NCBI RefSeq assembly: GCF_009818105.1
Contig: NZ_CP046564.1
Coordinates: 1,736,001-1,800,000, forward strand
Direction of reading: 5' to 3'
DNA from: Bacillus sp. N1-1
GTDB lineage: Bacteria > Bacillota > Bacilli > Bacillales > Guptibacillaceae
Length of the DNA stretch: 64,000 nucleotides
Every line of letters begins with the position of its first letter. Position 1 is the stretch's first letter. Made by a program: the position numbers and the translations under genes. This document shows positions 16,574 through 30,447 of this stretch, piece after piece. The notes beneath the pieces are model-generated. The model ran no database searches, was not told the DNA's origin, and saw only the letters and a program-made list of their open reading frames with translations.

Positions 16574-16606
16574 TAACTAATAATAAATTCGAGGAGGAGC
16601 ATGGAT

Positions 16607-17383
16607 ATGAACCTGTCTCTTGAGAACCGTACATATGTTGTGATGGGCGTTGCAAACAAACGAAGCATTGCCTGGGGGATTGCACAGGCATTAAGCAGTG
16701 CCGGTGCACGATTAATCTTTACTTACGCAGGTGAGCGTCTAGAGAAAAACGTTCGCGACCTTGCAGGTACACTAGATCGTGATGATTCCGTTATTTTACC
16801 GTGTGATATTACAAATGATGAGGAAATTGAAGCTACATTTGCTCAAATTAAAGAAGAAGTCGGCGTGATTCACGGACTTGCTCACTGTATCGCATTTGCG
16901 AAAACAGAAGAACTAAAAGGGGAGTACCTTGAAACAACGCGTGAAGGATTCTTGCTAGCGCATAACATTAGCTCTTATTCCCTAACTGCTGTATCAAAAG
17001 CAGCTCGTCCACTTATGACTGAAGGTGGAAGCATCCTTACGATGACATACCTTGGTGGCGAGCGTGTTGTGAACAACTATAACGTGATGGGTGTCGCAAA
17101 AGCATCGCTTGATGCAAGTGTGAAGTACCTTGCGAATGACCTTGGGAAAGATAACATCCGTGTTAACGCGATTTCAGCTGGGCCGATTCGTACGCTTGCA
17201 GCAAAAGGAATTGGCGACTTTAATTCTGTTATTAAAGAAATTGAAGAGAAATCTCCAATGCGTCGCACGGTAACGAAGGAAGACGTAGGAAACACAGCAT
17301 TATTCTTAATGAGTGATCTTTCTGGTGGAATTACTGGTGAGATGATTCATGTGGATAGCGGATATAATATTATTGCGACTTGA
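16607..17383 (+). CDS. fabI: Enoyl-[acyl-carrier-protein] reductase (NADH) FabI
   Basis: FabI performs the last step of each fatty-acid elongation cycle, reducing enoyl-ACP. The 258-residue SDR-fold enzyme has VVMGVANKRSIAWGIAQAL, the nucleotide-binding turn of FabI, and the Tyr-x6-Lys catalytic pair in YNVMGVAK, with the SAGPIRTLAAKGI loop that binds triclosan-type inhibitors in homologues. ATG at 16607 is chosen over the ATG two codons earlier because GAGGAGG is about nine bases away and the length equals B. subtilis FabI. In B. subtilis spore-coat genes follow fabI, and the same is true here. Confidence 0.96.
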   Translation: MNLSLENRTYVVMGVANKRSIAWGIAQALSSAGARLIFTYAGERLEKNVRDLAGTLDRDDSVILPCDITNDEEIEATFAQIKEEVGVIHGLAHCIAFAKTEELKGEYLETTREGFLLAHNISSYSLTAVSKAARPLMTEGGSILTMTYLGGERVVNNYNVMGVAKASLDASVKYLANDLGKDNIRVNAISAGPIRTLAAKGIGDFNSVIKEIEEKSPMRRTVTKEDVGNTALFLMSDLSGGITGEMIHVDSGYNIIAT

Positions 17384-17622: not shown

Positions 17623-18402
17623 ATGGGTTTTAGACCTATTCGTAGATCTGCATCTACAAACTTTTGTGATAACACTGCAAACAATCCCCCTCAGCCTACT
17701 CCACAAAACCGTGACTTTATTAAGGTACCTGTTGTATTAGGGCAATATAACATTCAAATCCCTATGCATGCAGAGATTGAGTTCCCAGCAGGGCAAAATG
17801 TACTTGAAATTAAAGACATTAAGAAAAGAGCCTATTTAACTCAATGTAAATTGCTTTCAGTTTCACAGGATGAAGATCCCAACCAACCCACAACTGGAAA
17901 GCTTTATATTAGTGGCTTTGTACGCAAAAACATTAAATATGCAGTTAATCCAGAGATAGTATCAGGGGAATTTGACACACAATTAAGTTCCAACATTCGC
18001 TCACTAACAGTTCCAGTTCCTTTCGATTGTGTTACTGAAGTAACGTTTCAAGGAAACGCTCGCCCTGTTGGTCCATTTCTAAATCAACGAGCTGAGTGGG
18101 AATATCTGATTTCTCAAGATCTTCCTTCAGGCTTCCCGGAAAAAGATAGTTTAGAAGGTACAGACTTATCTCAGTTCCATCAGCAAAGCACACAATATTT
18201 TAATGAACTTCCATTCTGTGAGCTAAACCGAGCAGAGTTCCTTCAAATTGATGAGTCATTGAACCGAGTTCCTGTTACAAGTGCTGCTACTGGTGATGTT
18301 CTAGGTGAAGGAACATTTACTGAGTTATCAGAAAAAATGGTTTTAGACCTAACTCTTACTTTGCTTCAAAAACAAACTGTCAATAACTACTTGACGGATT
18401 AA
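17623..18402 (+). CDS. SPOCS/DUF3794-like spore surface protein A (CsxC-like)
   Basis: The 259-residue protein resembles the SPOCS (DUF3794) beta-rich proteins of spore coat and exosporium, a group that includes clostridial CsxC. Seen directly: a polar N-terminus (residues 1-30), then IPMHAEIEFPAGQNVLEIKDIKKRAYLTQCKLL, and LYISGFVRKNIKYA, the characteristic strand pattern, and a C-terminal segment FTELSEKMVLDLTLTLLQKQ. It has a strong AGGAGG site and no signal peptide, as expected for mother-cell proteins that assemble on the spore. A paralogue follows. No CATAnnnTA promoter was found for this copy. Exact function is unknown. Confidence 0.7.
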   Translation: MGFRPIRRSASTNFCDNTANNPPQPTPQNRDFIKVPVVLGQYNIQIPMHAEIEFPAGQNVLEIKDIKKRAYLTQCKLLSVSQDEDPNQPTTGKLYISGFVRKNIKYAVNPEIVSGEFDTQLSSNIRSLTVPVPFDCVTEVTFQGNARPVGPFLNQRAEWEYLISQDLPSGFPEKDSLEGTDLSQFHQQSTQYFNELPFCELNRAEFLQIDESLNRVPVTSAATGDVLGEGTFTELSEKMVLDLTLTLLQKQTVNNYLTD

Positions 18403-18410
18403 TTTATATG

Positions 18411-18438
18411 AAGCCGATCCTTTGGATCGGCTTTTTTT
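18411..18438 (+). terminator. Terminator after spore surface protein A gene
   Basis: AGCCGATCC pairs with GGATCGGCT around a three-base loop, followed by seven T. Confidence 0.9.
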
Positions 18439-18517
18439 AATTCCTTAAGATTTACACCATTCCACTTGCAAAGGAAGTGAAGAATGTAAAAAGGCTGATG
18501 ACTAGAATTTCGTCCAA

Positions 18518-18544
18518 ACGACTCTAAGATTGACGCATAATATA
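18518..18544 (+). promoter_or_regulatory. Candidate sigma-K promoter for spore surface protein B
   Basis: AC, 16 bases, then CATAATATA, fitting AC-N16/17-CATAnnnTA for sigma-K. It ends 32 bases before the start codon. Confidence 0.5.
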
Positions 18545-18576
18545 GTATGAAAAGAATATAGAGGGGGGACAAATTG

Positions 18577-19512
18577 ATGGAAAAAGAACCAAGAATTCGA
18601 AGTGCGACTATTAACGAATGTATCGCTGATGAAGCTCAAGTATATGCGATCGACGGAAGTGGCAAGATTGTCAAAATTCCCGTTCTATTACAGAGTCTTA
18701 CTATTCAAATACCTACTCATGCAAATATAGAGTTTCCAGAATGCGAACACGTGTTAGAAATAAAAGATATTAAAAAACGAGTGTTTTTATCCCAATGCAA
18801 ACTTTTGCATTCCGGCAATGGAGGCACACTTTTTATAAGTGGGTTTATCCGTAAAAACATCCAATATGCCTCGAATCCCATCAGTTGTAAGCGTAGTGAT
18901 ATTCAAACAAACATAAAATCACTTACAGTGAATGTTCCATTTGAATGTTCTACCAAAATTGAGAGTTTATTATCCGAGCCAGTCGGACCAATGTTTAATA
19001 CTAGAGAAGAGTTTAATTTCATGATTTCCACTCCACTTCCTGAAGGCTATCCAGAAAAAGACGAGTTGCTTTCAGATGATTTGTCTCAATTTGGTCAGCA
19101 AAGCACACAGTATTTTAATGAACTACCATTTTGCGAACTCGTGAAAGCTAAAATCATAGAAATTGATCAATCTCTTAACCGAAAACCTGGTAAGATCATT
19201 AAACCATCTCATGAAAAAGAGATCCTTTTAGAATGTACCTGTGTGGCAAAAGAAGAAGTGAGTCCAAAAAAGAGAGGAAAAAGACGTAAGAAAAAAAGAT
19301 CTTTGTTCGAGGATGGAGCTACTGTTCGTGTTGAGCTGCCTAAAGAAAAAGTCGAAGTGGTTAAAGCTGAAAAGGAATGCTTGCATTGTAAAGAGAAAAA
19401 ACAAAAGAAAGTGACGTCCTTTGAAGGCATTTTCACTGAAATGTCTGAAAAAATGGTTCTCGATCTTACGATAAACTTACTTCAAAAGCAGCTTGTTAAA
19501 TTACCTGAATAG
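18577..19512 (+). CDS. SPOCS/DUF3794-like spore surface protein B with Lys/Cys-rich insertion
   Basis: This 311-residue paralogue of the preceding protein shares the core IPTHANIEFPECEHVLEIKDIKKRV, LFISGFIRKNIQYA, QQSTQYFNELPFCEL and the terminal FTEMSEKMVLDLTINLLQKQ. Unlike protein A, it carries an insertion of roughly 75 residues before the C-terminal block, rich in Lys/Arg and with Cys pairs (ECTC and CLHC). The ATG at 18577 follows GAGGGGGG; a TTG just before is less likely. Disulfide or metal cross-linking through the insertion is plausible but inferred. Its own terminator and a sigma-K-like promoter make it a separate unit. Confidence 0.7.
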   Translation: MEKEPRIRSATINECIADEAQVYAIDGSGKIVKIPVLLQSLTIQIPTHANIEFPECEHVLEIKDIKKRVFLSQCKLLHSGNGGTLFISGFIRKNIQYASNPISCKRSDIQTNIKSLTVNVPFECSTKIESLLSEPVGPMFNTREEFNFMISTPLPEGYPEKDELLSDDLSQFGQQSTQYFNELPFCELVKAKIIEIDQSLNRKPGKIIKPSHEKEILLECTCVAKEEVSPKKRGKRRKKKRSLFEDGATVRVELPKEKVEVVKAEKECLHCKEKKQKKVTSFEGIFTEMSEKMVLDLTINLLQKQLVKLPE

Positions 19513-19540
19513 ACGAACCATTCAATACAATACCGTTCTA

Positions 19541-19571
19541 GAAAAACACCTTTTCATGAGGTGTTTTTTTA
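19541..19571 (+). terminator. Terminator after spore surface protein B gene
   Basis: AAACACCT pairs with AGGTGTTT around a seven-base loop, followed by a T run. Confidence 0.85.
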
Positions 19572-19618
19572 TTGAAATTGTACTTAAAATGGTTATGTAT
19601 ATTAACTCATTTACCTAT

Positions 19619-19645
19619 ACCTCGTCCTAGCTAAAACATACACTA
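19619..19645 (+). promoter_or_regulatory. Candidate sigma-K promoter for the Cys/His-rich gene
   Basis: AC, 16 bases, then CATACACTA, an exact AC-N16-CATAnnnTA match ending 35 bases before the start codon. Confidence 0.55.
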
Positions 19646-19680
19646 CTAATAAGCTACGGTGCAGAAGCGAGGTGAGATAA

Positions 19681-19959
19681 ATGTGTAAAAAATGCAGAAG
19701 TCTTTTTCATGATTGTCATAAAGAAGAAGAAGTAGAAATCATCTGCAAATGTCAAGTGGTTAAAAAGAAATGCGGTTGTAGAAAAAAACAGGACAAACAT
19801 CTGGTTTGTAAATGCAAAGAAGTTGATCATTGTTCTTGTTCTCATTGTCGAAAACACGACAAACGTTTTGTATGCAAATGTAAACTGGTGAAAGAATGGC
19901 ATGATCATTGTTGTTGCCATTCCTGTGGTAGTGAAGAATTTATTATTTGGGATTATTAG
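19681..19959 (+). CDS. Cys/His-rich repeat protein, probable spore coat component
   Basis: A 92-residue protein with 18 Cys and 9 His, many Lys and almost no hydrophobic core. Three copies of the motif hydrophobic-C-K-C-(Q/K)-x-V-(K/D) occur at roughly 30-residue intervals (IICKCQVVK, LVCKCKEVD, FVCKCKLVK), separated by Cys/His clusters such as CSCSHC and HCCCHSC. GAGGTGA precedes the ATG. It does not match a family I can name. The composition suits metal binding or disulfide cross-linking, and the sigma-K-like promoter and neighbours argue for the spore surface. The Cys/Lys style resembles the insertion in the preceding paralogue. Confidence 0.7.
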   Translation: MCKKCRSLFHDCHKEEEVEIICKCQVVKKKCGCRKKQDKHLVCKCKEVDHCSCSHCRKHDKRFVCKCKLVKEWHDHCCCHSCGSEEFIIWDY

Positions 19960-20018
19960 TTTTCCTTATTACAACATAACATGAAAATTTCTATAAACGC
20001 CCTCCTCTCAAAAATATG

Positions 20019-20068
20019 TACCCTATCGGGAAGACTTATAAAATGTCTGCCCTATAGGGTGTTTTTTA
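20019..20068 (+). terminator. Two-part hairpin terminator after the Cys/His-rich gene
   Basis: Outer arms ACCCTAT and ATAGGGT with inner pairs AGAC and GTCT form a long imperfect hairpin followed by GTTTTTTATG. The remainder of the roughly 240-base gap to the next gene shows no coding sequence. Confidence 0.75.
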
Positions 20069-20140
20069 TGGGGTAGGAGACTAAATAATATGATGGAATA
20101 TTACGTTTGAATAGAATGGATTTATTTTGAAACTAAGAAA

Positions 20141-20163
20141 CAAGCTAACTAAAAGTTAGCTTG
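20141..20163 (-). terminator. Hairpin downstream of the CotY/CotZ-like gene
   Basis: AAGCTAACT pairs perfectly with AGTTAGCTT around AAA. On the - strand only a weak T tract (GTTTCTTAGTTTC) follows, so termination is uncertain. Confidence 0.4.
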
Positions 20164-20203
20164 CTTCTCGGTGGAAAGATTTAAGTTTGATTTTTGTATC
20201 TCA

Positions 20204-20503
20204 TTATTTTGTTTTAAGTGGAACTAGGGCTTTCAAATCACGACAATCAATATACATAATAAAGTTACTGCCTATACCATTTGGAAAAACACTTATTGGT
20301 GATACGAGATTACTAACAACAAATTTTGCGCAACAAGAACGGTCTTTAAATCCAATAAATGTAGCTTCAATAAATTCTGGGAAACCATCAACTAAAATAA
20401 AGAATTTACTTCCTTCACGTTCGTTTTTCAATTTATTACAAAGACACTTTCCACAAGTGTTTTTCTTAGAATGATTTGTGCAATGATCAAATAAACTTGA
20501 CAT
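20204..20503 (-). CDS. CotY/CotZ-like spore coat protein
   Basis: CotY, CotZ and ExsY are Cys-rich proteins that self-assemble into the crust or exosporium basal layer. The 99-residue product has an N-terminal Cys cluster (CGKCLCNKL at about residues 17-25) and a C-terminal beta domain with EATFIGFKDRSCCAKFVVSNLVSP and YIDCRDLKALVPL, which parallels the CotZ/CotY end (paired Cys followed by an aspartate-Cys strand and a final hydrophobic strand). It is shorter than B. subtilis CotZ (about 150 residues), lacking part of the N-terminal region. AAGGAGG lies upstream of the ATG. In B. subtilis cotZ and cotY also lie downstream of fabI. Confidence 0.75.
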   Translation of the reverse strand: MSSLFDHCTNHSKKNTCGKCLCNKLKNEREGSKFFILVDGFPEFIEATFIGFKDRSCCAKFVVSNLVSPISVFPNGIGSNFIMYIDCRDLKALVPLKTK

Positions 20504-20610
20504 ATGCTAACCTCCTTTTCTCAATTACTATATCTTATCCTAATGATTACTAAATGGTTTGGATATGCACCTAAAACCAAAAGAAATATTTAAAAAGAAG
20601 GAGTTTTTTT

Positions 20611-21537
20611 ATGGAAAAAAAACTGAAAATATTATTTATTACGAGAGATTTTTCTAAGAATATTGAAAAAAGCAGTTATTATTTATCACGCGAATTAAGT
20701 AGACAAACTGATTTAGCACTTTGGCATACAAGAGGGCACATACAGGGCATTCTTTCACAATTATCACAGGAACCTGATTTTATACTGTTAAATGACTTCA
20801 AGCCAGATTACTGTCCAGAAATTAAAGGTCTTAGAAGCTCAGCTGTGCCATATGGAATAATTATGCATGACCTGCATTATAAAGTGTCACAAAGAAAGAG
20901 GTTTATTGTAAAAGAAAATATTCAACACATTTTTTCCATTTGCAGAGATTCATTTCTAAGCTGGTATCCTGAGTTTGTTGACAGAATGGTATGGTTTCCT
21001 TTTCATGTACCAGAAGATATTTTCAGAGATTATGGTGAAAACAAAATTTATAATTTTTTAATGATGGGGGCAATGGACCAAAGGTATTATCCATTAAGGG
21101 TAAAGATGGCAGAAGAAATGAAGGATGAGAAAGGGTTTGTTCATCTCAAACATCCAGGGTATGGAGTTATAGATGACGGTAAGGTCTTAACAGGAGAGAT
21201 TTATGCAAGAGAAATAAATCGTGCTAAACTATTTCTCACATGTGATAGTTCTTTAAAATTTCCTTTATTAAAATATTTTGAAGTATTAGCTTGTAAAACT
21301 TTATTACTTGCACCATCAAACCAAGAACTTCAAGATCTTGGCTTTAAGGATGGAGAAAACTTTGTATCAATTAATGAGTACAACTTTAAAGAAAAGGCGA
21401 TTTACTATTTGGATAATGAACTAGAAACCCAGAGAATTGTAAATAATGGATGCGATATGGTTCATAAAAATCACTCTACAGAAAAAAGAGTGAAACAATT
21501 GATCACAACTGTGAAGGAAATCATTAACCATAGGTAG
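20611..21537 (+). CDS. CgeB-type glycosyltransferase (spore surface)
   Basis: A 308-residue GT-B-fold glycosyltransferase of the CgeB kind, which in B. subtilis acts on the spore crust. It begins KILFITRDFSKN (a Rossmann-like strand), has IIMHDLHY near residue 88, and a C-terminal half with FLMMGAMDQRYYPLR, then KLFLTCDSSLKFPLLKYFEVLACKTLLLAPSNQEL, the Glu-containing donor-binding region. No membrane segment is visible. AAGGAG is eight bases before the ATG. A strong terminator overlaps its end, so it is not in one transcript with the sugar cassette unless readthrough occurs. The acceptor and donor are unknown. Confidence 0.8.
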   Translation: MEKKLKILFITRDFSKNIEKSSYYLSRELSRQTDLALWHTRGHIQGILSQLSQEPDFILLNDFKPDYCPEIKGLRSSAVPYGIIMHDLHYKVSQRKRFIVKENIQHIFSICRDSFLSWYPEFVDRMVWFPFHVPEDIFRDYGENKIYNFLMMGAMDQRYYPLRVKMAEEMKDEKGFVHLKHPGYGVIDDGKVLTGEIYAREINRAKLFLTCDSSLKFPLLKYFEVLACKTLLLAPSNQELQDLGFKDGENFVSINEYNFKEKAIYYLDNELETQRIVNNGCDMVHKNHSTEKRVKQLITTVKEIINHR

Positions 21538-21574
21538 CAGTAGCTACTATGGTTAATGATTTTTTGATTTTTTT
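21522..21574 (+). terminator. Terminator overlapping the CgeB-type gene stop
   Basis: ATTAACCATAG pairs with CTATGGTTAAT (small internal mismatch) around a GTAGC-AGTA-GCTA core. TTTTTTG and TTTTTTTT follow. Confidence 0.85.
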
Positions 21575-21631
21575 TACTCGTCCAATTATTTTATTAAATA
21601 CTCTTATGATAATTTAATGAATATGTTCAGT

Positions 21632-21658
21632 ACTTTTCGAATTAGATTTCATACTATA
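21632..21658 (+). promoter_or_regulatory. Candidate sigma-K promoter for the sugar cassette
   Basis: AC, 16 bases, then CATACTATA, an exact AC-N16-CATAnnnTA match. It ends 40 bases before the first gene of the cassette. Confidence 0.55.
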
Positions 21659-21698
21659 TTAAAGAGTTTATACATGATTGGATTAAGGTGATGATTTT

Positions 21699-22664
21699 AT
21701 GAAAGTTGGTGTAATTGGGACAGGGAAAATGGGTGAAAACCATTTAAGAATGTATTCAACTTTAATAAATTCCTGTCAGCCGATAGGAGTTTACGATATA
21801 GATTACAATAAAGCGCTTGAAATTGCTGCCAAATATAACTTGAAAGCGTATCGAAAACTGAGTGACTTATTAAATAATGTAAATGCGGTTAGTATTACCA
21901 CGCCTACTCAAACTCATTTTGACATTGGTGTCGAGTGTATAAAGCATAATGTACACGTTTTAGTCGAAAAGCCTATCACGACATCTCTTGAGCAAGCAAA
22001 TGAATTAATTCAACTAGCGCATGATTCTGGAGTTATTCTTCAGGTAGGTCATATTGAGGTTTTTAATCCGGTAGTAAAAGAGCTGGAAAAAATACTTTCC
22101 AATGAAAAAATAGTAGCCGTTGATGTACACAGATTGAGCCAATTAGATAATCGCACGACTAGTTGGGACGTAGTCTATGATTTGATGATTCATGATATAT
22201 ACATTCTTCAACATCTTTTAAATAAAGATATTCAACAGATTTTTGCTTTAGGTCAAACATATAATAATGTAATCAAGCATGCTATCGGACTCCTGGAGTT
22301 TGAGGGCGGAATTATCACACAGTTAACTTCAAGTCATGTTACAGAAGATAGAGTTAGATCGATGCGAATAATAACAACCAAAGCATTTATTAAGGTAGAT
22401 TTCTTAGAGAAAAAAATAGAGATTTCTCGTTCTCCGAAATTTTGTTCAGATCAATTGAATTCTTATTATAATCAACAAAGTCTGGTAGAAATCATATCAA
22501 TTCCAAACGGCAATGCGCTTAGATTAGAATTACAGGAATTCATTGATTCAATCTCAACTAATAGAGAACCAAAAGTAACCGGAGAAGACGGACTCAAAGC
22601 TCTAAAAGTAGCGGACAAGATTAGTCGATTAATTCTAAATAGCGACCCAAAATTCAAAAAATAA
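21699..22664 (+). CDS. Gfo/Idh/MocA-family NAD-dependent sugar dehydrogenase (WbpB/WlbA-like)
   Basis: A 321-residue oxidoreductase likely to oxidise C-3 of a UDP- or dTDP-sugar, the step before transamination. It has the dinucleotide motif VIGTGKMGENH at residues 4-14, the VEKPITTSLEQA motif (Lys in the EKP triad, about 93) and HIEVFNPVVKEL. The organisation dehydrogenase-acyltransferase-aminotransferase parallels wbpB-wbpD-wbpE, which makes 2,3-diacetamido sugars in Pseudomonas; the order here differs and the substrate is not proven. An acyltransferase gene follows after 17 bases. This stretch is visibly more A+T-rich than the flanking yjb block. Confidence 0.85.
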   Translation: MKVGVIGTGKMGENHLRMYSTLINSCQPIGVYDIDYNKALEIAAKYNLKAYRKLSDLLNNVNAVSITTPTQTHFDIGVECIKHNVHVLVEKPITTSLEQANELIQLAHDSGVILQVGHIEVFNPVVKELEKILSNEKIVAVDVHRLSQLDNRTTSWDVVYDLMIHDIYILQHLLNKDIQQIFALGQTYNNVIKHAIGLLEFEGGIITQLTSSHVTEDRVRSMRIITTKAFIKVDFLEKKIEISRSPKFCSDQLNSYYNQQSLVEIISIPNGNALRLELQEFIDSISTNREPKVTGEDGLKALKVADKISRLILNSDPKFKK

Positions 22665-22681
22665 GTTGGGGAGGAATAGAG

Positions 22682-23395
22682 ATGATTGATGATTCGGTTT
22701 ATATTGATACAAGCTGCAAGCTAGGAAGAAATATTGTAATTGAGAAAGACGTTAAAATAGGAAGTAATGTAAGTATAGGCCATAATACAGTGATTTTGGA
22801 AAATACAATAATTAGTAACAATGTGCAAATTGGTTGTAATAATGTGGTGGGTTGTCAACCTAGTAAGAACACTAGAATTATAAATGATGTCAAAAATCAA
22901 GGTGCACTAATAATTAAGAAAGGAAGTATTATTGGAAATGGCGTTGTACTATATGCTGGAACGAGAATAGGTGAAGATGTTTTCATTGGTGATCAAGCAA
23001 GCATCAGAGAGAATAGTGATATAGGAAATTCTACCGTTATTGGAAGATGTGCCAAAATTGAATGTAGAACAACTATCGGATCTTTATGTATTATTCAAAC
23101 TGGAGCATATATTACTGCTGATATGGTTCTTGAAGATAATGTGTTTATTGGCCCTGAAGTGTCAACATCAAATGATAAACACATGAGACGTTCATTAACA
23201 CCTCTAAAAGGTCCTTATTTAAAAAATGGAGCTAGTGTAGGGAATAATGCTACATTGCTTCCTGGAATAGTGATTGGAAAGGATTCGGTTATTGGTGCAG
23301 GTTCTGTTGTTACAAAAGATGTTCCGGATTCGACTGTTTTTATAGGTAATCCAGCTAAAGAAATTAATTCTATAAAAGGAAGAGGGAAGAAATGA
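22682..23395 (+). CDS. Left-handed beta-helix acyltransferase (WbpD/WlbB-like)
   Basis: A 237-residue hexapeptide-repeat protein, typical of UDP-amino-sugar N-acetyltransferases. Repeats such as VIEKDVKIGSNVSIG, TVILENTIISNNVQIG and TVIGRCAKIECRTTIG run through the chain, and FIGPEVSTSNDKHMRR resembles the loop of WbpD/WlbB enzymes that contacts acetyl-CoA or substrate. It ends with ATLLPGIVIGKDSVIGAGSVVTKDVPDSTVFIGNPAKEI, the usual C-terminal coil. Its last codons overlap the aminotransferase start by four bases, showing translational coupling. It probably acetylates the amine made by that enzyme. Confidence 0.87.
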   Translation: MIDDSVYIDTSCKLGRNIVIEKDVKIGSNVSIGHNTVILENTIISNNVQIGCNNVVGCQPSKNTRIINDVKNQGALIIKKGSIIGNGVVLYAGTRIGEDVFIGDQASIRENSDIGNSTVIGRCAKIECRTTIGSLCIIQTGAYITADMVLEDNVFIGPEVSTSNDKHMRRSLTPLKGPYLKNGASVGNNATLLPGIVIGKDSVIGAGSVVTKDVPDSTVFIGNPAKEINSIKGRGKK

Positions 23396-24513
23396 CAATC
23401 CCTTTGATCGATCTTTTATCACAATATCGTTCGTTAGAAAGTGAGATAGACGGAGCAATAAAAAGAGTTTTAGAGAGTGGAGTATATATAAATGGCGTGG
23501 AAACAAAGTCGTTTTGCTCAGAAATCTCTGACTATACAGGTGCGGATTTTGCAATTCCGACCGCAAATGGAACTGATTCTTTAATTCTTTCAATGCAAGC
23601 CTTAAACATAGGTGTCGGGGATGAAGTGATTACATCCCCCTATTCTTTTTTTGCAAGTGCCGAAGCAATTGCTCGAGTAGGTGCAACTCCAGTTTTTGCA
23701 GATATAGACCTGCTAACATACAATTTGTGCCCTGAAAAGGTCGAGAAAAAAATAACAGACAAAACGAAGGCAGTCATTCCAGTTCATATTTTTGGTCAAC
23801 CCGCAGATATGGACGCATTTATTACGATGGGGAAAAAACACAATTTATTTATTATTGAAGATGCTTGTCAAGCATTAGGTGCTCGATATAAGAATCAGCA
23901 GGCAGGAACGATTGGAGTGGCAGGTTGTATTTCTTTTTTTCCTACTAAAAATCTTGGTGGTTATGGTGATGGGGGGCTGGTTCTTACTAATAATGAAGAA
24001 CTTGCACACAATGTTCAATTACTTGCATCACATGGATCTTCTGAAAAATATTATCATGAAGTAATTGGTTATAATAGCAGATTAGATGAGATACAAGCTG
24101 CTATCCTAAGAATTAAACTAAAAAAATTAAATGAGTGGAATCAAAAGAGAAGAGAAAAAGCAATGATTTACTCCACTGCATTTAACACTTTAGAAATCAC
24201 AACACCTTTTACTAATGAATACGTACAGCATGTTTTTCATTTATATATTATACAATCGAAGAACAGTAAGAAAATATCCGATTTTCTTTTGGAACGTGGT
24301 ATTGCAACAGGTCATTACTATCCATGTCCACTTCATTTACAGAAGGCGTTCCGTTCTTTAGGTTATAAAAATGGCGATTTACCAGTAGCTGAAAACCTTG
24401 CGAACCATTCATTAGCTTTACCCCTCTTTCCTGAGTTAACAAATAATCAACAGCAATACATTATATCTTGTATTCAAGACTTTGGAAGGTTAAAATCGAG
24501 GTTATCAAAATAA
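23392..24513 (+). CDS. DegT/DnrJ/EryC1/StrS-family sugar aminotransferase (WbpE-like)
   Basis: A 373-residue PLP enzyme that transfers an amino group to a keto sugar nucleotide. Family landmarks are IPTANGTDSLILSMQALNIG (phosphate-binding), EDACQALGARY and SFFPTKNLGGYGDGG, whose Lys forms the PLP aldimine, followed by HGSSEKYYHEVIGYNSRLDE. It overlaps the acyltransferase by four bases. The cassette lacks a nucleotidyltransferase, a 4,6-dehydratase and a transferase of its own, so it presumably draws UDP-GlcNAc-derived precursors and delivers product to the nearby CgeB-type enzymes. B. subtilis has a comparable enzyme, SpsC, for spore-coat polysaccharide. Confidence 0.9.
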   Translation: MTIPLIDLLSQYRSLESEIDGAIKRVLESGVYINGVETKSFCSEISDYTGADFAIPTANGTDSLILSMQALNIGVGDEVITSPYSFFASAEAIARVGATPVFADIDLLTYNLCPEKVEKKITDKTKAVIPVHIFGQPADMDAFITMGKKHNLFIIEDACQALGARYKNQQAGTIGVAGCISFFPTKNLGGYGDGGLVLTNNEELAHNVQLLASHGSSEKYYHEVIGYNSRLDEIQAAILRIKLKKLNEWNQKRREKAMIYSTAFNTLEITTPFTNEYVQHVFHLYIIQSKNSKKISDFLLERGIATGHYYPCPLHLQKAFRSLGYKNGDLPVAENLANHSLALPLFPELTNNQQQYIISCIQDFGRLKSRLSK

Positions 24514-24546
24514 TATGATTAGGATTTCAGTGTTTGAATTGGAATC

Positions 24547-24597
24547 TAAAAAAGATTTTCTGGCAGAATCACTTTGTGCCAGAAAATCTTTTTTTGT
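24547..24597. terminator. Terminator between the sugar cassette and the convergent CgeB gene
   Basis: AAAGATTTTCTGGCA pairs with TGCCAGAAAATCTTT around an 11-base loop, with T-rich flanks on both strands. Confidence 0.9.
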
Positions 24598-24622
24598 CAT
24601 AATGAAATTTGACTACGATCGA

Positions 24623-26038
24623 TTAGTTGAGAGTGATTTGAGGAGTAAAGATTTTTACTGAAGGTTGTAAGCTTATTCCGAAATTTGTATTACTTGATTC
24701 GATCATTTGTTTAATTAATTCAGTTATATCAAAGTAGTATTCGTTATTAAATGATGATTCAGCCTTTAAAGTCATAATGCGGCTTGAAAGCTCGGGAGTG
24801 TATCCCTGAATAATCATGTTATCTGACAAATCATTAAGAAGAAAATGACAATGTAAAACAGGATTTCTAACTACTGGTGAATTGGGTAAAGTAAGAGTTA
24901 ATTTTGTTGATTTCATTTTAAAATTCTCATTAATCATGTCTTTTTTTATAATGATGCGTTTTGGTCTTCTCTCAGATAAAATGAATTTATTGGTTTGTAG
25001 TTGACTATTCATTTGCTCTACTGGAAGGGGATTCTGAATTAATGTTGAACTCGAATTTAGTTTTTTGGGTTTTAGATAAGGTTTAATTTTCTTTACCATC
25101 TCTTCAATTCGATGGACATAAGTATGATGCTCATGTACATACGCTTTCCCTCTCGTTGAAATAGCTTTCCTTTTTTGTTTGTTTTTAAGATAAAAATTAA
25201 CAAGCTGGACTGTCTCTTCTGGATTCATGCTAGTAATGAGATGTTTTCCTACAGTGAAATGGCGGTGAACAGAGGGAGAATCTGTGGTTAATAAAAATGC
25301 ACCGCTTGCCAAACTCTCATATGTTCTTTGTGTGAGTAGCCCATCTGCGTTTTGTATGCCTAGAACGATTTTTGAGGAGCTATAAACTTTCGATATATCC
25401 TTGTAATCAATTGGACCACGCAAACATTTTTCAGGTATCTCAAATGAAAGCTGGTTACGATGCTCAAGCCAACCAGGTCCCCATACATTTACTTCGAAAC
25501 CATTCTCAATGAGAGGATATAGTAATTTTTTTAAAGATTTTATTCTGTAAGATTCTTCTGTATCAATCCAAGGTTTGTAAGTAGCTATTAAGGATATATC
25601 TGAACTAAATTCTTCAAGTGGAATATGAGCTTTTTGCCAATCTGGATGACATGCAAAAGGTAAATAAGATGAAGGGATTCCAATACGACGATACATTTCG
25701 GTAGAATCATAATCATGTGTAAACATGTAATCTGGCCTACCAGTATTCACAATAAATTTGGACCAAGTTTCTGTGTGAAGAGGGTCTTCGAAAGACCAGT
25801 GCACATAAAAAGCATCACTATTATTGCAATAATTTCTTATGGTTTTAAAATTTGCCTCTGTATGAGCATTGTTCCACCCACTAGTAAGAATGACATCAGG
25901 TTTAAACATTTCTAATTTACTTTGTAGAGAATTAGAATCTTCATATTTATCTGAAGTTCGAACTGACATTCCTGCTTTTACTAATGCGTCTGCAATCATA
26001 TCAGTAAAAAGCGATTGATCTAAGTAGAACCACTTCAT
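24623..26038 (-). CDS. CgeB-type glycosyltransferase with C-terminal DNRLRE-like beta domain
   Basis: A 471-residue protein. Residues 1-325 form a CgeB-type GT-B glycosyltransferase: N-terminal WFYLDQSLFTDMIADALVKAG, central DISLIATYKPW and VNVWGPGWLEHRNQ, then KIVLGIQNADGLLTQRTYESLASGAFLLTTDSPSVHRHF, which holds the donor site. After a Lys/Ser-rich linker (about 325-372) the last 95 residues are a beta-type domain with TKLTLTLPNS and FDITELIKQMIESSNTNFGISL, resembling DNRLRE surface domains. Other CgeB-type enzymes I know end before this. The extra domain may anchor the enzyme on the spore; the domain call is tentative. Confidence 0.78.
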   Translation of the reverse strand: MKWFYLDQSLFTDMIADALVKAGMSVRTSDKYEDSNSLQSKLEMFKPDVILTSGWNNAHTEANFKTIRNYCNNSDAFYVHWSFEDPLHTETWSKFIVNTGRPDYMFTHDYDSTEMYRRIGIPSSYLPFACHPDWQKAHIPLEEFSSDISLIATYKPWIDTEESYRIKSLKKLLYPLIENGFEVNVWGPGWLEHRNQLSFEIPEKCLRGPIDYKDISKVYSSSKIVLGIQNADGLLTQRTYESLASGAFLLTTDSPSVHRHFTVGKHLITSMNPEETVQLVNFYLKNKQKRKAISTRGKAYVHEHHTYVHRIEEMVKKIKPYLKPKKLNSSSTLIQNPLPVEQMNSQLQTNKFILSERRPKRIIIKKDMINENFKMKSTKLTLTLPNSPVVRNPVLHCHFLLNDLSDNMIIQGYTPELSSRIMTLKAESSFNNEYYFDITELIKQMIESSNTNFGISLQPSVKIFTPQITLN

Positions 26039-26061
26039 GCAAGATCACTCATTTCTTTTCT

Positions 26062-26093
26062 TTAAAAAACGATCGGAGAAAATATCCGATCGT
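26062..26093 (-). terminator. Terminator after the 46-residue gene
   Basis: On the - strand ACGATCGGA pairs with TCCGATCGT around a seven-base loop, followed by TTTTTT. Confidence 0.85.
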
Positions 26094-26095
26094 TT

Positions 26096-26236
26096 TTATG
26101 ATTTTGTTGGTTTCCAAGTCGTTTTCCCACATGACTTACAACCTGATGTTTTTTTTGAAGGAATGGTTGTGTTTTCACGAGAACGTCGTCTTCTTTTAAC
26201 TTCTCGATAAAGTGCTTGTAAATCAGACTTTTTCAT
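26096..26236 (-). CDS. Small basic Cys-pair protein
   Basis: A 46-residue product with an AGGAGG site about ten bases before its ATG and a strong terminator after its stop. It is highly basic (KRRRRSR in the middle) and ends in GCKSCGKTTWKPTKS, one CxxC pair. A second CxxC needed for a full zinc ribbon is missing, so dimeric binding or a cross-linking role is possible. I do not recognise the family. Its position between a CgeB-type gene and a protein of unknown function suggests a spore-related role, which is inference. Confidence 0.6.
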   Translation of the reverse strand: MKKSDLQALYREVKRRRRSRENTTIPSKKTSGCKSCGKTTWKPTKS

Positions 26237-26311
26237 TCATATCCTCCTCATTCGAGCTTTTCCTTTGAATAATACATACTATTCGTGCTCGAACGTAAGG
26301 TGTTGAGATGT

Positions 26312-27106
26312 TTAAGGCTTTCTATAAAATGGGTTAATAACTGATTTCTTAGCTGTTTCTCGATTGAATTTAAAAGGATTAAATGGTTCTGGAGTGAATA
26401 GTGATTGTTGAGACTGAAAGGGCGATATAGTTTTACGTTCCTTTCTTGATTCGTTTGGTGAACGCTTTGTTTGTTTCTTTGATGAATATTCATCTGGTAG
26501 TAAAGGCCATTCAGAAAGAGATGTTCCTGAGATTTGATAAGAAGAAAAGTGAGGATTGAGTTTTTCAAGTACAGATGTAATTAGAAACTCATATTGTGCT
26601 ATAGATAGATGATCAATCGGTTTAAAGTATGGTTTCAGATAATACTGGATGGTTAAATAAGAAAGCCATTCCATTGAGGTTTCGACGTATTTCGGATGAA
26701 TCGAACACATTAGTGAGGAAAATGGATCAGGCAACCATATGTTTTTGTGAATTCTCTTTTGTAAATCCAAGCTTTTACTTTTCATTCCTTTTAGATGATA
26801 CGTTTTTTCTTCAGTAATTAATGAAAGCGGGTAGTCATATTTATCGGAAACGTTGACTGTTATATTTAGATCTGCGGTGTTTGCGTGAGCACTCAATTCA
26901 ATCCCAGTGTGAGATAGTAAAGAAAAGAAAAATGATGCTCTGTCATTTGATTCAATATCGAGATACACTTTCTTGGTACTTAGTGATCCAGTTAGACTAT
27001 TATTTTGAAATGAAATTCCCCAATAAGGTAAAAGAATTTTAAGTGCCTCTAGGTCATTAACATTAAGATTGCAAATCTCTTTATCCATCCAATACAATCT
27101 ATTCAA
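26312..27106 (-). CDS. Protein of unknown function in the spore-surface island
   Basis: A 264-residue protein that I cannot place in a family. Visible features are no signal peptide, an acidic N-terminal region (residues 1-110), a hydrophobic-aromatic stretch around residues 135-180 (MEWLSYLTIQYYLKPYFK), and a strongly basic, Ser/Phe/Pro-rich tail (residues 215-264) with SPFQSQQSLFTPEPFNPFKF. TTG at 27106 is taken as start, eight bases after AGGGAGTG. The tail suggests an unstructured interaction region, as in several coat morphogenetic proteins such as CotO, but no homology was established. It is divergent from the 391-residue gene. Confidence 0.6.
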   Translation of the reverse strand: MNRLYWMDKEICNLNVNDLEALKILLPYWGISFQNNSLTGSLSTKKVYLDIESNDRASFFFSLLSHTGIELSAHANTADLNITVNVSDKYDYPLSLITEEKTYHLKGMKSKSLDLQKRIHKNIWLPDPFSSLMCSIHPKYVETSMEWLSYLTIQYYLKPYFKPIDHLSIAQYEFLITSVLEKLNPHFSSYQISGTSLSEWPLLPDEYSSKKQTKRSPNESRKERKTISPFQSQQSLFTPEPFNPFKFNRETAKKSVINPFYRKP

Positions 27107-27238
27107 TATCTTTCACTCCCTGAATTTTATGTTCACAGCTTCCAATTAAATTTGGGCCACTCCTTCTGTTGCATTTCTGTGCTAATTCCATAGTATGTAG
27201 TGAATCAACCTATCATGTGAAAGAAAGGAAGGAACGAT

Positions 27239-28414
27239 ATGGGTCACAAATCACATAAGAAACACACCGTTCCAACAGCTACAAATAGCTTACAGGATGA
27301 GTGTATTCGCGTTCAAAAAGTATACGACTGGGTGACCGATCAGCTTTCTGTAAGAAAGACCATCAAATTTACAGATCATCAGCTAAAGAAGATCGAGTGT
27401 GCTATGGAAGATCCTAGCCGCCGTCCCCTACGTATTGTTTGTAAAACACCAGAAGCACCTCCATTGTTCCCGCTCTCAGGTAGTGAGCATACAGAGGATG
27501 ACTTCTTCTGTGAACAAGTTGGAGAAAAACGTGATGTTAGCGTAGCGATTCCGGGCGGGGGATTTGCAGATGCACAACTCGTTGACCTTCTCTTTACAAC
27601 GGATGTAAAGGTGAAGGTTGTTGACCGTCATGGTAAGTTAGTTACGGATTTGGATGTCAATGCATCTGTTTTTGAATCATTCGTCTTATGCTTCCCGAAT
27701 GGAACAGACCTTTTCTGTAGAATTACTAAAATTGTTTGTCGCATTCCTTCAGGAACAGTTTTACTAAACAGCCCAGCACCAGATTCATTTGATCTTGAAG
27801 TGGTTTTCTGTGTTGATATTCAAGTGGAAGCAGAAGTAAAACTAGAGGTTCTTGCTAAATTCTGTTCACCTCGTGATAATGATCTTCTTGCGCCTGACTT
27901 AATTGATGAATGTCCTCCAGTTGAATTCCCTGAACAGTGTCCAGATATATTCCCTCGACCAAACTGTGATTGTTCTTTGACTGGTGAAGCGAGCGGCGAA
28001 ACAGATTCTGAAGACGATGAAGGAAAAGCTACACTACTTGTGAATATATGCGACGATTGTAGCCTGTCAGGTAGCTCGATGAAACTGAATTTCCATGACA
28101 CGGATTCAAGTGATGGAAAGCACAGCTTTACATTTACTGCTACAAGCTTTGATCAAGATACACTCGAATGCAAAGAGTGTGGGGATGGATTGAAGTTCAT
28201 CATTGAGGGTAGCGGAGAAACCGATCGCGGTCGTACGCTTGACTTTAAACTAGCTGTTGTAGATTCTGATGATGATCAGTGGTTCGAAGTACATTTACTG
28301 AACCGCAGAGGAAAAGTAGTCTTTAATACTGGAACAGTAGAAGTTGAAGAAGGCGAACTAACAATTGATGATTGTATCACGTTTGAAGATTTAAAGTATA
28401 AGAGACAGCCTTAA
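27239..28414 (+). CDS. Cys- and Asp/Glu-rich protein, probable morphogenetic spore coat protein
   Basis: A 391-residue protein starting MGHKSHKKHT and then ECIRVQKVYDWV, a motif I associate with Bacillales spore coat proteins (the BMQ_0737-type family, from memory, low certainty). The middle (residues 90-215) is a beta-rich region with DVSVAIPGGGFADAQLVDLLF and EVVFCVDIQVEAEVKLEVLAKF. The C-terminal part (240-385) has Cys pairs CDCSLTGEASGETD and CDDCSLSGSS plus CKECGDG, and is very acidic. AAGGAAGG lies ahead of the ATG. A perfect terminator follows. Function unproven; localisation on the spore is inferred from the island and composition. Confidence 0.6.
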   Translation: MGHKSHKKHTVPTATNSLQDECIRVQKVYDWVTDQLSVRKTIKFTDHQLKKIECAMEDPSRRPLRIVCKTPEAPPLFPLSGSEHTEDDFFCEQVGEKRDVSVAIPGGGFADAQLVDLLFTTDVKVKVVDRHGKLVTDLDVNASVFESFVLCFPNGTDLFCRITKIVCRIPSGTVLLNSPAPDSFDLEVVFCVDIQVEAEVKLEVLAKFCSPRDNDLLAPDLIDECPPVEFPEQCPDIFPRPNCDCSLTGEASGETDSEDDEGKATLLVNICDDCSLSGSSMKLNFHDTDSSDGKHSFTFTATSFDQDTLECKECGDGLKFIIEGSGETDRGRTLDFKLAVVDSDDDQWFEVHLLNRRGKVVFNTGTVEVEEGELTIDDCITFEDLKYKRQP

Positions 28415-28420
28415 ATCAGT

Positions 28421-28451
28421 AGTGCAGGAGATCAAATCCTGCACTTTTTTG
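28421..28451 (+). terminator. Terminator after the 391-residue gene
   Basis: AGTGCAGGA pairs with TCCTGCACT around a seven-base loop, followed by TTTTT. Confidence 0.9.
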
Positions 28452-28520
28452 TTATGAAAGAAGACCTACCTCTCATACATATAGAATAAGGGAAGCGCTG
28501 GATAGAGAGGGGGGAGTTCC

Positions 28521-29429
28521 GTGCAAGGTGAAAAGTTAAGTTATTCTCGTCTCATTACACGTACAAAGTACTTCCAAGAAAAATCACTTGAACTTGAGAA
28601 AGAACTTATTTTTGCAAACGATCAATTGGCTTCGCTTGAGAAGCAAATCGAGTTAAGCAAAGATCAAGAAAGTACGATTGCGAGTTTGAAAGAAGAATTA
28701 AACGAGTTAGAAAAAAAGCTTGAAAAGCAGGCTCAGGAGCATGTTCGATTTCAAAACGAAGTGGATTCTTCGAAAAGAACTTCCGAGGTTAGAAAAGAAG
28801 AAAAAACAAAGATAAAAGGATACGAAGATTTACTGGCAGATATGCAATTGGAGATTAATGAAAAAGACAAGCGACTCCAACATTACCAGGGGAAAATTAA
28901 AAACCTTGAAAAAAGAGCACAATATCAGGCAGGTGATGTAACGGAAGTAGAAGCGCAGTCAACCAATGTCGTAGATCACTACGCAGTTAGTTACTTTAAT
29001 ACATCCATTATTATTAGTGATAAACAGTCTGTCATGATACGCGGCGACTTACAAATCGAAAATTGTGGAGCATTAAAATTAAGAAATCCGCTCGTTTGTT
29101 TTCGGTTTCTGCCATCAGAAATGGCAACATTAAAAGGAAGGATTTATTCAATTGAACATGCCGAAACAAAATCGCTTGATTCAAGCGATCGAATTCAATG
29201 GGTTTTTCCTGATCATGATTGGTTAGAGAAAGCAAAAGAAAAGGGAGAGATTTGGGTTTCGCCATTACATCCAGTGACGCTAAAACCAGGAGAGAAAATT
29301 AGCATTGAAAGTTTTCAGATCCCGATCAAATCTGAATTTAAAGAGCCTGTTATTATAGAAGGTTTTGTTTATTTTCAAAGTGATAACTACAGGATTAAGG
29401 TGTCCAATCAAATAGCATTGAGCTACTAA
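28521..29429 (+). CDS. Coiled-coil protein with C-terminal beta domain, function unknown
   Basis: A 302-residue protein with two clear parts. Residues about 12-135 form a long Glu/Lys/Leu coiled coil (for example LEKEL, LEKQIEL, LKEELNELEKKLEK). Residues 150-302 look beta-rich, with SYFNTSIIISDKQSVMIRGDLQIEN, LVCFRFLP and IIEGFVYFQSDNYRIKVSNQ, resembling an immunoglobulin-like or carbohydrate-type sandwich. GTG is the start after AGAGGGGGGAG. I cannot assign a family. The rod-plus-head architecture, the spore-coat neighbours and the small following gene suggest a structural spore protein. Confidence 0.55.
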   Translation: MQGEKLSYSRLITRTKYFQEKSLELEKELIFANDQLASLEKQIELSKDQESTIASLKEELNELEKKLEKQAQEHVRFQNEVDSSKRTSEVRKEEKTKIKGYEDLLADMQLEINEKDKRLQHYQGKIKNLEKRAQYQAGDVTEVEAQSTNVVDHYAVSYFNTSIIISDKQSVMIRGDLQIENCGALKLRNPLVCFRFLPSEMATLKGRIYSIEHAETKSLDSSDRIQWVFPDHDWLEKAKEKGEIWVSPLHPVTLKPGEKISIESFQIPIKSEFKEPVIIEGFVYFQSDNYRIKVSNQIALSY

Positions 29430-29445
29430 TATAGAAGGTGCCCAT

Positions 29446-29473
29446 ACCTGTGTTTCTCTTCCTGCATAGGATA
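29446..29473 (+). promoter_or_regulatory. Candidate sigma-K promoter for the 77-residue gene
   Basis: AC, 17 bases, then CATAGGATA fits AC-N16/17-CATAnnnTA. It ends 36 bases before the start codon. Confidence 0.5.
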
Positions 29474-29509
29474 ATGTGAAGTAGGAGGATAAAAGGGGGA
29501 AGGGTAAGA

Positions 29510-29743
29510 ATGTCTGAAAAGAAAAGAAAACCACAAGTTATTCATGTAGATCGTGTGATCATTAAAGCGAATGAAGTTATTATCCAAGAAGAACGCGATG
29601 AGCATGAACACAAAAAAGAGGACCGAAGAGAAGATCGTCGTGATCCCTGGGGCTTTTTTGGTTCAACCGACGCAGCTGATGAGGAAAGGGAACGTGACGG
29701 TAGAGAAGATGAGGATGATAAGAAAGGGCGTTACTGGTTTTAA
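29510..29743 (+). CDS. Small highly charged protein, possible spore coat component
   Basis: A 77-residue protein with a short beta-like N-terminus, KPQVIHVDRVIIKANEVIIQ, then a run of Glu/Asp/Arg/His/Lys broken by DPWGFFG and ending KGRYWF. No Cys and no signal peptide. The ribosome site GGGGGAAGG is seven bases before the ATG. It ends in a strong hairpin. I cannot name the family. The sigma-K-like promoter and its place at the end of the spore island are the only functional hints. Confidence 0.55.
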   Translation: MSEKKRKPQVIHVDRVIIKANEVIIQEERDEHEHKKEDRREDRRDPWGFFGSTDAADEERERDGREDEDDKKGRYWF

Positions 29744-29770
29744 GAGCAGAGTATTCTGCTCTTTTTTTAT
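29743..29770 (+). terminator. Terminator after the small charged gene
   Basis: AGAGCAGA pairs with TCTGCTCT around GTAT, followed by seven T. Confidence 0.9.
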
Positions 29771-30447
29771 TTTTCGTACTTCTGTAAAAAGACTTTATCA
29801 TCTTGTTTCCACTCAAGAAGCAATACCTCTGAATAGTGATCAATATGGTGTTTCTTTAACGTTTTATTGAGCCATTCTTCGTTCAATCCAGCATCTTTTA
29901 AATTTTCCCAATCAATTTTTCCATCAGAGATAATCGAATAAGAGAGATATCCTCGAGCCGGTTTTAGATTAAAATCTTGTTTCGTTGGTTCCTGATAATC
30001 TGATCTCTTTAATACACTAATGCTTCCATTCGTCTCAAGGATGGCAAATTCAACTTCGTTCATTGAGAACACGTCTTTTTGGCGTAATAAATTTTGAAGT
30101 TGGTTAATATCGAGTTTGTTTCTCTTTAGCTGATCGCGATTGATTTTTCCATTGTGAATCACGATCGAAGGCTTTCCTTCAAGAAATGATCTTGTACCGC
30201 GAAATTTTTGCGTAATCCATTCAACAACATAAATAAGAACTCCCCAGAGAAGAACGGAGTATATGATTGAAAAAATATTAACGTGCTTATCATAAATCGC
30301 ATTCCCAACTAGTTCACCAAGAACGAGGGAAGAAATAAAGTCAAAGGGAGTAATTTGTGTGATTTGAGTTTTTCCGAGAGCTTTCGTTAATATAAGTAAA
30401 GCTAGAAAGCCAATAAGAAGCTCAACCGTAATCGACCCAATGTTCAA
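29767..30447 (-). CDS. DUF421 (YetF-type) membrane protein
   Basis: A 226-residue protein of the DUF421/YetF family, seen in many Bacillus copies and some spore or germination loci. Three membrane helices occupy residues 1-80 (ITVELLIGFLALLILTKALG and the family ITPFDFISSLVLGELVGNAI), followed by a soluble domain with the KPSIVIHNGKINRDQLKRNKLDINQL signature and MNEVEFAILETNGSISVLKR. TTG at 30447 is the start, after AAGGTGAT. Molecular function is not known. Confidence 0.88.
   Translation of the reverse strand: MNIGSITVELLIGFLALLILTKALGKTQITQITPFDFISSLVLGELVGNAIYDKHVNIFSIIYSVLLWGVLIYVVEWITQKFRGTRSFLEGKPSIVIHNGKINRDQLKRNKLDINQLQNLLRQKDVFSMNEVEFAILETNGSISVLKRSDYQEPTKQDFNLKPARGYLSYSIISDGKIDWENLKDAGLNEEWLNKTLKKHHIDHYSEVLLLEWKQDDKVFLQKYEK

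Follow-up and report, generated by a model that had tools for sequence, protein, structure and literature searches.

This study concerns a run of genes in a 64-kb stretch of DNA from Bacillus sp. N1-1 (the window; bases 1736001-1800000 of G000, a genome of 4.50 Mb in one contig), bounded by fabI (16601-17383, + strand; Pfam adh_short_C2) on the left and a DUF421/YetF gene (29767-30447, - strand; Pfam PF04239) on the right. We consider it fairly probable that the run is one allele of a modular, late-sporulation locus for spore-surface glycans whose sugar modules can be swapped. Dedication of the locus to the spore surface, which an earlier note on this DNA had proposed, is likely, and we hold this part with good confidence: the CsxC and BMQ_0737 families are encoded here, sigma-K-like motifs precede several genes, and the same gene types are linked in other genera. 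The reading draws on computed results: the families to which the proteins belong, the order of the genes and their exchange, an enrichment of promoter motifs, and the divergence of one protein, p264. We counted 14 open reading frames (ORFs) between fabI and the DUF421/YetF gene; the earlier note had spoken of twelve consecutive genes, and the run indeed exists, but that note's own list also sums to 14.

At the locus, constant borders (fabI to the left; p46, p264, BMQ_0737, p302 and p77 to the right) enclose genes for sugar nucleotides and glycosyltransferases that can be exchanged as a block. For the exact sugar, its acceptor, the layer and mother-cell expression, we infer the following scheme. 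In the window, a Gfo/Idh enzyme would oxidise C3 of UDP-GlcNAc (uridine diphosphate N-acetylglucosamine), a DegT enzyme would then aminate C3, and an acetyltransferase would N-acetylate the product to UDP-GlcNAc3NAc; a dehydrogenase from another part of the genome might then oxidise this sugar. Late in sporulation and under sigma K, two CgeB-type transferases of the mother cell would attach the sugar to an acceptor of the outer layer. The scaffold would consist of BMQ_0737, CsxC and Cys-rich proteins, with p264 as candidate acceptor or adaptor.

Gene content of the locus and its exchange

The region was compared in 14 Pseudalkalibacillus genomes (Guptibacillus in some source names); fabI lies beyond the retrieved stretch in G007, and the island, that is, the genes between the two borders, is interrupted by a contig end in G012. 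FabI was 93-100% identical across the 12 genomes in which it was found, and the right block p46-p264-BMQ_0737-p302-p77 was present in all 14 (tblastn). A relative of the 308-residue CgeB-type transferase (CgeB308) lay in the island of 13 genomes, the fourteenth being the contig-end case. The sugar genes, however, varied. The full cassette of the window was found in two genomes, G000 and G006, while ten (G002-G005, G007, G009-G011, G013, G014) carried a UDP-GlcNAc 2-epimerase together with a PseB/FnlA-like dehydratase and an RmlD-like reductase; in the one genome scanned, the epimerase scored above the cut-off as WecB, and the dehydratase and reductase fell below theirs. By analogy, this epimerase/4,6-dehydratase module recalls pathways to UDP-L-FucNAc (N-acetylfucosamine). 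In G009, G010 and G014 there are also nucleotidyltransferases, a gene resembling those of dTDP-sugar (deoxythymidine diphosphate-sugar) epimerases and a protein of 1133-1139 residues in which a methyltransferase is fused to a GT2 enzyme; the fusion of G010 has 1139 residues (L032, 6129-9548), with relatives in G009 and G014. The island of G008 holds a UDP-sugar dehydrogenase, two GT2 enzymes and a formyltransferase-like gene. Relatives of sulfotransferases occurred in six of the 14 genomes (G002, G003, G004, G007, G011 and G013; two by Pfam, the rest by BLAST), and the island of G007 additionally encodes an ATP (adenosine triphosphate) sulfurylase and an APS (adenosine 5'-phosphosulfate) kinase. 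As a separate observation, the gene caller gave no more than a 113-residue frame for fabI of G009 (L056, around base 2488), owing to a frameshift, an assembly error or an artefact of the caller.

Since the fabI side and the right block are constant while the contents of the island differ, the genes do not make up a fixed co-inherited set, and this candidate was rejected on the comparison of gene content over the 14 genomes. The self-contained system envisaged in the earlier note thus did not survive: the complete set is present in two genomes, and among the 12 others the sugar genes were replaced in 11, the twelfth being one that could not be judged. When asked of the set as a whole, co-occurrence failed; for the locus as a site of spore-surface glycan genes, it held.

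Synonymous divergence (dS, substitutions per synonymous site) between G000 and G008 was low at fabI (0.28), high at CgeB308 (2.05) and low again at p264 (0.22) and BMQ_0737 (0.49), and the sugar genes behind CgeB308 were non-homologous in the two genomes. This low-high-low course, together with the non-homologous sugar genes, indicates that a block was replaced between fabI and p264. In the same pair, dS climbed again at p302 (1.09) and DUF421 (2.65), and the DUF421 gene was near synonymous saturation in close strains (dS 1.9 to G006, 2.7 to G008), so that a second exchange point to the right of the block is likely. On these comparisons, the reading of the region as an exchangeable glycan locus is well supported.

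A wider survey covered 199 genomes of the order. Relatives of BMQ_0737 were found in 97 of them and p264 in 17, seven of which belong to the genus of the window; these 17 were the genomes with the 17 best BMQ_0737 matches, and in each of them p264 and BMQ_0737 were divergently oriented, their matches lying 111-270 bases apart. Contigs that carry p264 are named Pseudalkalibacillus, Alkalihalobacillus, Bacillus sp. and Fictibacillus phosphorivorans. In all ten p264-bearing loci outside the genus, p302 lay downstream of BMQ_0737. With fabI in view in six of the ten, a glycan island stood between fabI and p264 in four (G096, G125, G152, G201), and in G073 and G185, two genera of one family, fabI was directly beside the block, separated from it by no more than one or two small frames. 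These empty sites, without glycan genes between fabI and p264-BMQ_0737, are those of L104 (4560-6450) and L106 (13973-16000). The Gfo/Idh dehydrogenase was found in eight of the 199 genomes (E<=1e-50); it lay 1.8 kb from a BMQ_0737 relative in G061 and about 8 kb in G144, it was accompanied by relatives of both the acetyltransferase and DegT in G061 and of the acetyltransferase in G144, and it was near CgeB-type transferases in G061 and G048.

The sugar cassette and its predicted product

The window proteins were scanned against Pfam and NCBIfam with curated or gathering cut-offs. As the earlier note had it, three genes form a sugar cassette: a Gfo/Idh dehydrogenase (21699-22664, +), a hexapeptide N-acetyltransferase (22682-23395, +) and a DegT aminotransferase (23392-24513, +), the latter two overlapping by 4 bases. 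The top NCBIfam model for the Gfo/Idh protein was UDP-GlcNAc 3-dehydrogenase (NF040723, 219 bits; next model 122 bits). Its closest structure was PDB 7bvj (9e-35), which we take to be GnnA, the entry itself being titled 'Oxidoreductase, NAD-binding'; the next one scored 2e-17, and 3q2i, presumably a WlbA, 1e-7. We regard it as probable that the enzyme works like a UDP-GlcNAc 3-dehydrogenase, and family membership is not claimed. The acetyltransferase was closest to QdtC (PDB 3fs8, 8e-29), and the DegT protein to 7b0d (2e-120, named glutamine--scyllo-inositol transaminase), QdtB (1e-96) and WbpE (1e-79). QdtB, QdtC and WbpE act, as we assume, at C3, and the DegT enzyme probably does so as well. 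Read together, the matches (C3 oxidation, amination, N-acetylation) make UDP-GlcNAc3NAc the best prediction for the product, and the acetamido sugar of the earlier note is supported by the family matches of the three enzymes.

Some scores count against this assignment. The Gfo/Idh protein stays well below the cut-off of NF040723 (219 vs 450 bits), and the top models of the acetyltransferase (NeuD/PglB/VioB, 109 bits vs a cut-off of 161) and of the DegT protein (PseC, 263 vs 424 bits) were likewise not reached. PseC is, to our assumption, a C4 aminotransferase, and the match to it runs against action at C3.

Within the spore-surface reading, the cassette could instead of UDP-GlcNAc3NAc yield a uronic acid, UDP-GlcNAc3NAcA or an epimer of it, as in pathways of the Wlb/Wbp type. 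Such a product would fit the six matches to UDP-sugar dehydrogenase found in other parts of the genome, as well as the relatives of this enzyme in the Gfo/Idh neighbourhoods of G061, G048, G071, G169, G194 and G121. However, Pfam scans gave no UDP-sugar dehydrogenase gene in the island, and the Gfo/Idh protein is much nearer to 7bvj than to 3q2i; we thus find the uronic acid rather unlikely, and UDP-GlcNAc3NAc remains the predicted product.

Both CgeB-type transferases named in the earlier note matched PF13524 above its gathering score (58 and 97 bits vs 25). CgeB308 (20611-21537, +; 1.3e-15) precedes the cassette, and the 471-residue enzyme (24623-26038, -; 1.4e-27) follows it. The latter also gave a DUF3880 match slightly below the cut-off (5e-5). 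Its C-terminal extension (24623-25080) showed a weak match to Disaggr_repeat (E 0.006, below the cut-off) and is perhaps a carbohydrate-binding domain.

Sigma-K-like motifs in the island

We searched with the sigma-K-like pattern AC-N16-CATANNNTA and counted the -10 element CATANNNTA alone at 22-80 bp before gene starts; the latter count involves no choice of spacing. For the AC element, a spacing of 14-16 was used at first, and 16 and 15-17 were adopted after the three window sites had shown N16. Upstream regions shorter than 130 bp were dropped. The full pattern had three matches in the window, all inside the island and 38-49 bases before the genes for the second CsxC-family protein (18518-18544), the Cys/His-rich protein (19619-19645) and the Gfo/Idh dehydrogenase that opens the cassette (21632-21658); all three are on the + strand and are also present in G006. 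The -10 element stood before 3 of the 14 island genes, at the distance expected of a sigma-K regulon, and before 0 of the 57 others in the window (Fisher p 0.006). Sigma-K promoters are composed of two elements (PMC517825). A sigma-E-like pattern gave too few matches to be of use.

Across the genus, the -10 element was found in 61 of 333 island upstream regions, in comparison to a mean of 6.8 and a maximum of 13 in 30 shuffles, and in 3 of 94 flanking ones (shuffle mean 1.8). With the AC element included, the islands gave 33 matches (shuffle mean 1.1, maximum 3) and the flanks 0/94. As the CsxC2 site had been spotted by eye ahead of the test, a replicate was run later outside the genus with the same distance rule, on eight of the ten p264-bearing loci (L104 and L106, having no island, were excluded); it gave 23/139 vs a mean of 3.4 and a maximum of 7 in 40 shuffles, and 4/139 vs 3.1 for the reversed motif. 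The neighbourhoods of the dehydrogenase were grouped by gene content before the motif was counted, and those of G144, G061 and G048 had it in 15 of 58 upstream regions (mean 1.1, maximum 4). Counts from related genomes are not independent, and the totals 333/94 and 335/92 for islands and flanks differ by the border rule applied to G007 and G012, whose retrieved stretches do not include fabI.

Several results weigh against the spore-surface reading and have to be set beside this excess. Three matches per 64 kb are not unusual, being reached in 23 of 100 shuffles, and the bare pattern is not enriched genome-wide (106 matches vs 177 for the reversed pattern); it is the position of the motif, and not its bare count, that is informative. 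The reversed motif was slightly above shuffles in the genus islands (14/335 vs a mean of 7.4, maximum 13), so that a small part of the excess is due to composition, and it was also high around the dehydrogenase of G144, G061 and G048 (6/58 vs 1.4, maximum 5). Flanks outside the genus (3/29 vs 0.6) speak against a sharp border. No excess was seen at the dehydrogenases of G071, G169, G194 and G121 (3/78 vs 1.4), which indicates that the sugar pathway serves elsewhere too. In none of the 14 genomes did CATANNNTA stand upstream of p264 or of BMQ_0737, and the framework is thus possibly under other control. Gene lists came from a simple custom ORF caller, which missed some small genes (for example p77 in G000) and may place starts too far upstream. 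Finally, of 15 genomes in the family, 10 lack a match to CsxC.

As an alternative, the island could be a locus of vegetative cells for capsule or wall polysaccharide, adjoining spore-coat genes by chance. Exchange, low GC content (0.32-0.35 from CgeB308 to p264 vs 0.41 in the antiporter-fabI stretch) and gene types are as in capsule loci, and the dehydrogenase relatives of G071, G169, G194 and G121 occur with DegT and UDP-sugar dehydrogenase genes where the motif shows no excess. However, the motif excess before island genes includes the sugar cassette and the alternative modules, CgeB-type transferases are present, and Pfam recognised none of the 14 genes as coding for a flippase, a polymerase or a chain-length protein. 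In our view, this makes a capsule clearly unlikely.

The spore-surface reading extends to sulfation. Sulfotransferase and/or ATP sulfurylase, APS kinase and sulfate-type symporter genes were noted in the genus islands L029, L030, L031, L036, L037 and L038, and sulfation-type genes outside the genus in L098 (APS kinase only), L100-L103, L105 and L107, all of them islands with sigma-K-like motifs. The position of such genes in motif-bearing islands suggests that some spore glycans may be sulfated.

Outer-layer proteins, p264 and known systems

The earlier note had described the two genes at 17623 and 18574 as paired SPOCS/DUF3794-like; they form instead a tandem pair of the CsxC family. CsxC1 (17623-18402, +; 259 residues) and CsxC2 (18574-19512, +; 311-312 residues, starting at TTG 18574 or ATG 18577) scored 231 and 216 bits vs a cut-off of 135 (NF045794) and both also passed the Pfam cut-off for DUF7852; the NCBIfam matches name CsxC/BC_2427, the Pfam match DUF7852 only. 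The SPOCS/DUF3794 label was rejected, as PF12673 had no match in the pair at E<=1; a search of the whole genome gave none either, nor did 14 controls, and it was not used as evidence. A CsxC gene is also carried by G007 (P. hwajinpoensis) on a plasmid of 16,075 bases (L041 8329-9228, NZ_CP156676.1), and plasmid-borne genes of the family also occur in Aneurinibacillus thermoaerophilus and Bacillus paramobilis. A CsxC tandem is likewise found in Fictibacillus phosphorivorans, 1.4 kb past p264. In G003 the CsxC genes lie outside the locus, with the Cys/His gene adjoining the pair there too.

The histories of these genes differ. CsxC1 of G000 is nearer to the unlinked copy of G003 (dS 0.38) than to the syntenic copy of G006 (1.76), whereas CsxC2 (0.36 to G006 vs 0.85 to G003) and the Cys/His gene (0.19 vs 0.72) show the reverse. 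That CsxC-type scaffold, sugar cassette and transferases evolved together as one self-contained unit is therefore most improbable: the whole set is common to G000 and G006 with protein identities of 69-96%, but it is complete in these two genomes only, and CsxC1 differs in history from CsxC2 and the Cys/His gene.

The protein that the earlier note had called a Cys/His repeat protein (19681-19959, +) has 92 residues with 18 Cys and 9 His, and no family match. The 99-residue Cys-rich protein (20204-20503, -) has relatives in other islands and, as regards CotY/CotZ, shows a Cys pattern only. Its former label, CotY/CotZ-like, was rejected by Pfam, NCBIfam and profile comparison: a scan of 13 relatives at E<=1 gave three chance-level Pfam families, none of them of the spore coat, and no NCBIfam family, its profile matched four PF10612 proteins with a probability of 3.5% (both profiles being shallow), and PF10612 was found in none of the 14 genus genomes. 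In B. subtilis, we assume, cot genes follow fabI.

Five further proteins had been called unnamed. For p46 (26096-26236, -), p264 (26312-27106, -), p302 (28521-29429, +) and p77 (29510-29743, +), of 46, 264, 302 and 77 residues, this stands, since they, like the 92- and 99-residue proteins, had no Pfam or NCBIfam match above the cut-off. The 391-residue protein (27239-28414, +), in contrast, belongs to the BMQ_0737 family of morphogenetic spore coat proteins (NF052457, 151 bits vs a cut-off of 71). P46 is small and conserved, p77 small and charged, and both are present in all 14 genus genomes; p302 has a coiled-coil-like N-terminal part and a conserved C-terminal part.

P264 evolves fast. Its identity was below that of BMQ_0737 in 91 of 91 genome pairs (median 33.5 vs 76.4%) and below that of p302 in 89 of 91. 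In nine close pairs, its ratio of nonsynonymous to synonymous divergence (dN/dS) was 0.17-0.32 vs 0.03-0.09 for BMQ_0737, values that are no proof of positive selection. P264 identities track CgeB308 (Spearman 0.33) more than BMQ_0737 (0.18), a weak trend among non-independent pairs. The C-terminus carries conserved FNPFKF / INPF motifs of NPF type. No family was found for p264, nor an informative name among the 17 proteins, and CotO was rejected, as 14 members gave no match to such a family. We regard p264 as a candidate glycan-specific acceptor or adaptor.

Work on spore-surface polysaccharides has centred on B. subtilis and the B. cereus group, and little has been charted of how these polymers vary from strain to strain. 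Among the matches listed in a literature search, no title dealt with a locus of this kind or with sulfated spore glycans in Bacillus, a weak result, as subscription journals were mostly uncovered. If our reading is true, the spore glycan type can be read from the genome at a single locus, related strains probably bear different spore sugars, and sulfated spore glycans are predicted in the strains with sulfotransferase islands (six of 14 in the genus). The locus would tie the little-known outer-layer families BMQ_0737 and CsxC to glycosylation, and p264 becomes a testable acceptor or adaptor. Tentatively, we can imagine the spore surface as serotyped: recombination may swap whole sugar chemistries between close strains (a 3-acetamido sugar, a sulfated FucNAc-like deoxysugar, a formylated sugar, a methylated dTDP-sugar), with p264 co-diversifying as acceptor or exposed antigen and spore-binding phages or grazers presumably as the driver. 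The finding is more interesting as a swappable spore-glycan locus than as a fixed island.

Among known systems, the cassette resembles the GnnA/GnnB and archaeal UDP-GlcNAc 3-dehydrogenase pathways in its enzyme types and order of chemistry; in the window, an acetyltransferase and CgeB-type transferases come next, where those pathways continue with enzymes for lipid A or for archaeal N-glycans. The island transferases presumably resemble CgeB of B. subtilis. CsxC was identified in the exosporium of C. sporogenes (PMC4942563), and the window pair belongs to the same curated family; the C. sporogenes protein has 14 Cys (PMC4942563), CsxC1 4 and CsxC2 10. BMQ_0737 of Bacillus (Priestia) megaterium, also of one curated family with its window counterpart, is among the outermost spore proteins, and a crucial role in the outermost layers has been ascribed to it (PMC4656864); in the window, p264 and p302 accompany the protein, which stands at the edge of a glycan island. 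B. subtilis spore-surface glycans are made by the sps, yfn, ytd and cge operons (PMC7439481, PMC11708026), which likewise combine sugar-nucleotide and glycosyltransferase genes of sporulation, with sps under sigma-K control (PMC517825). They differ in the sugar (legionaminic acid in sps) and in being several separate operons, and the accessible portions of these three papers make no mention of linkage to BMQ_0737 or CsxC or of exchange beside fabI. Capsule and O-antigen loci share with this locus fixed borders, an exchanged low-GC centre, sugar-nucleotide modules and genes for sulfation or methylation. Unlike them, the window locus has no recognised polymer-export genes, is flanked by spore-coat genes and is probably a locus of late sporulation.

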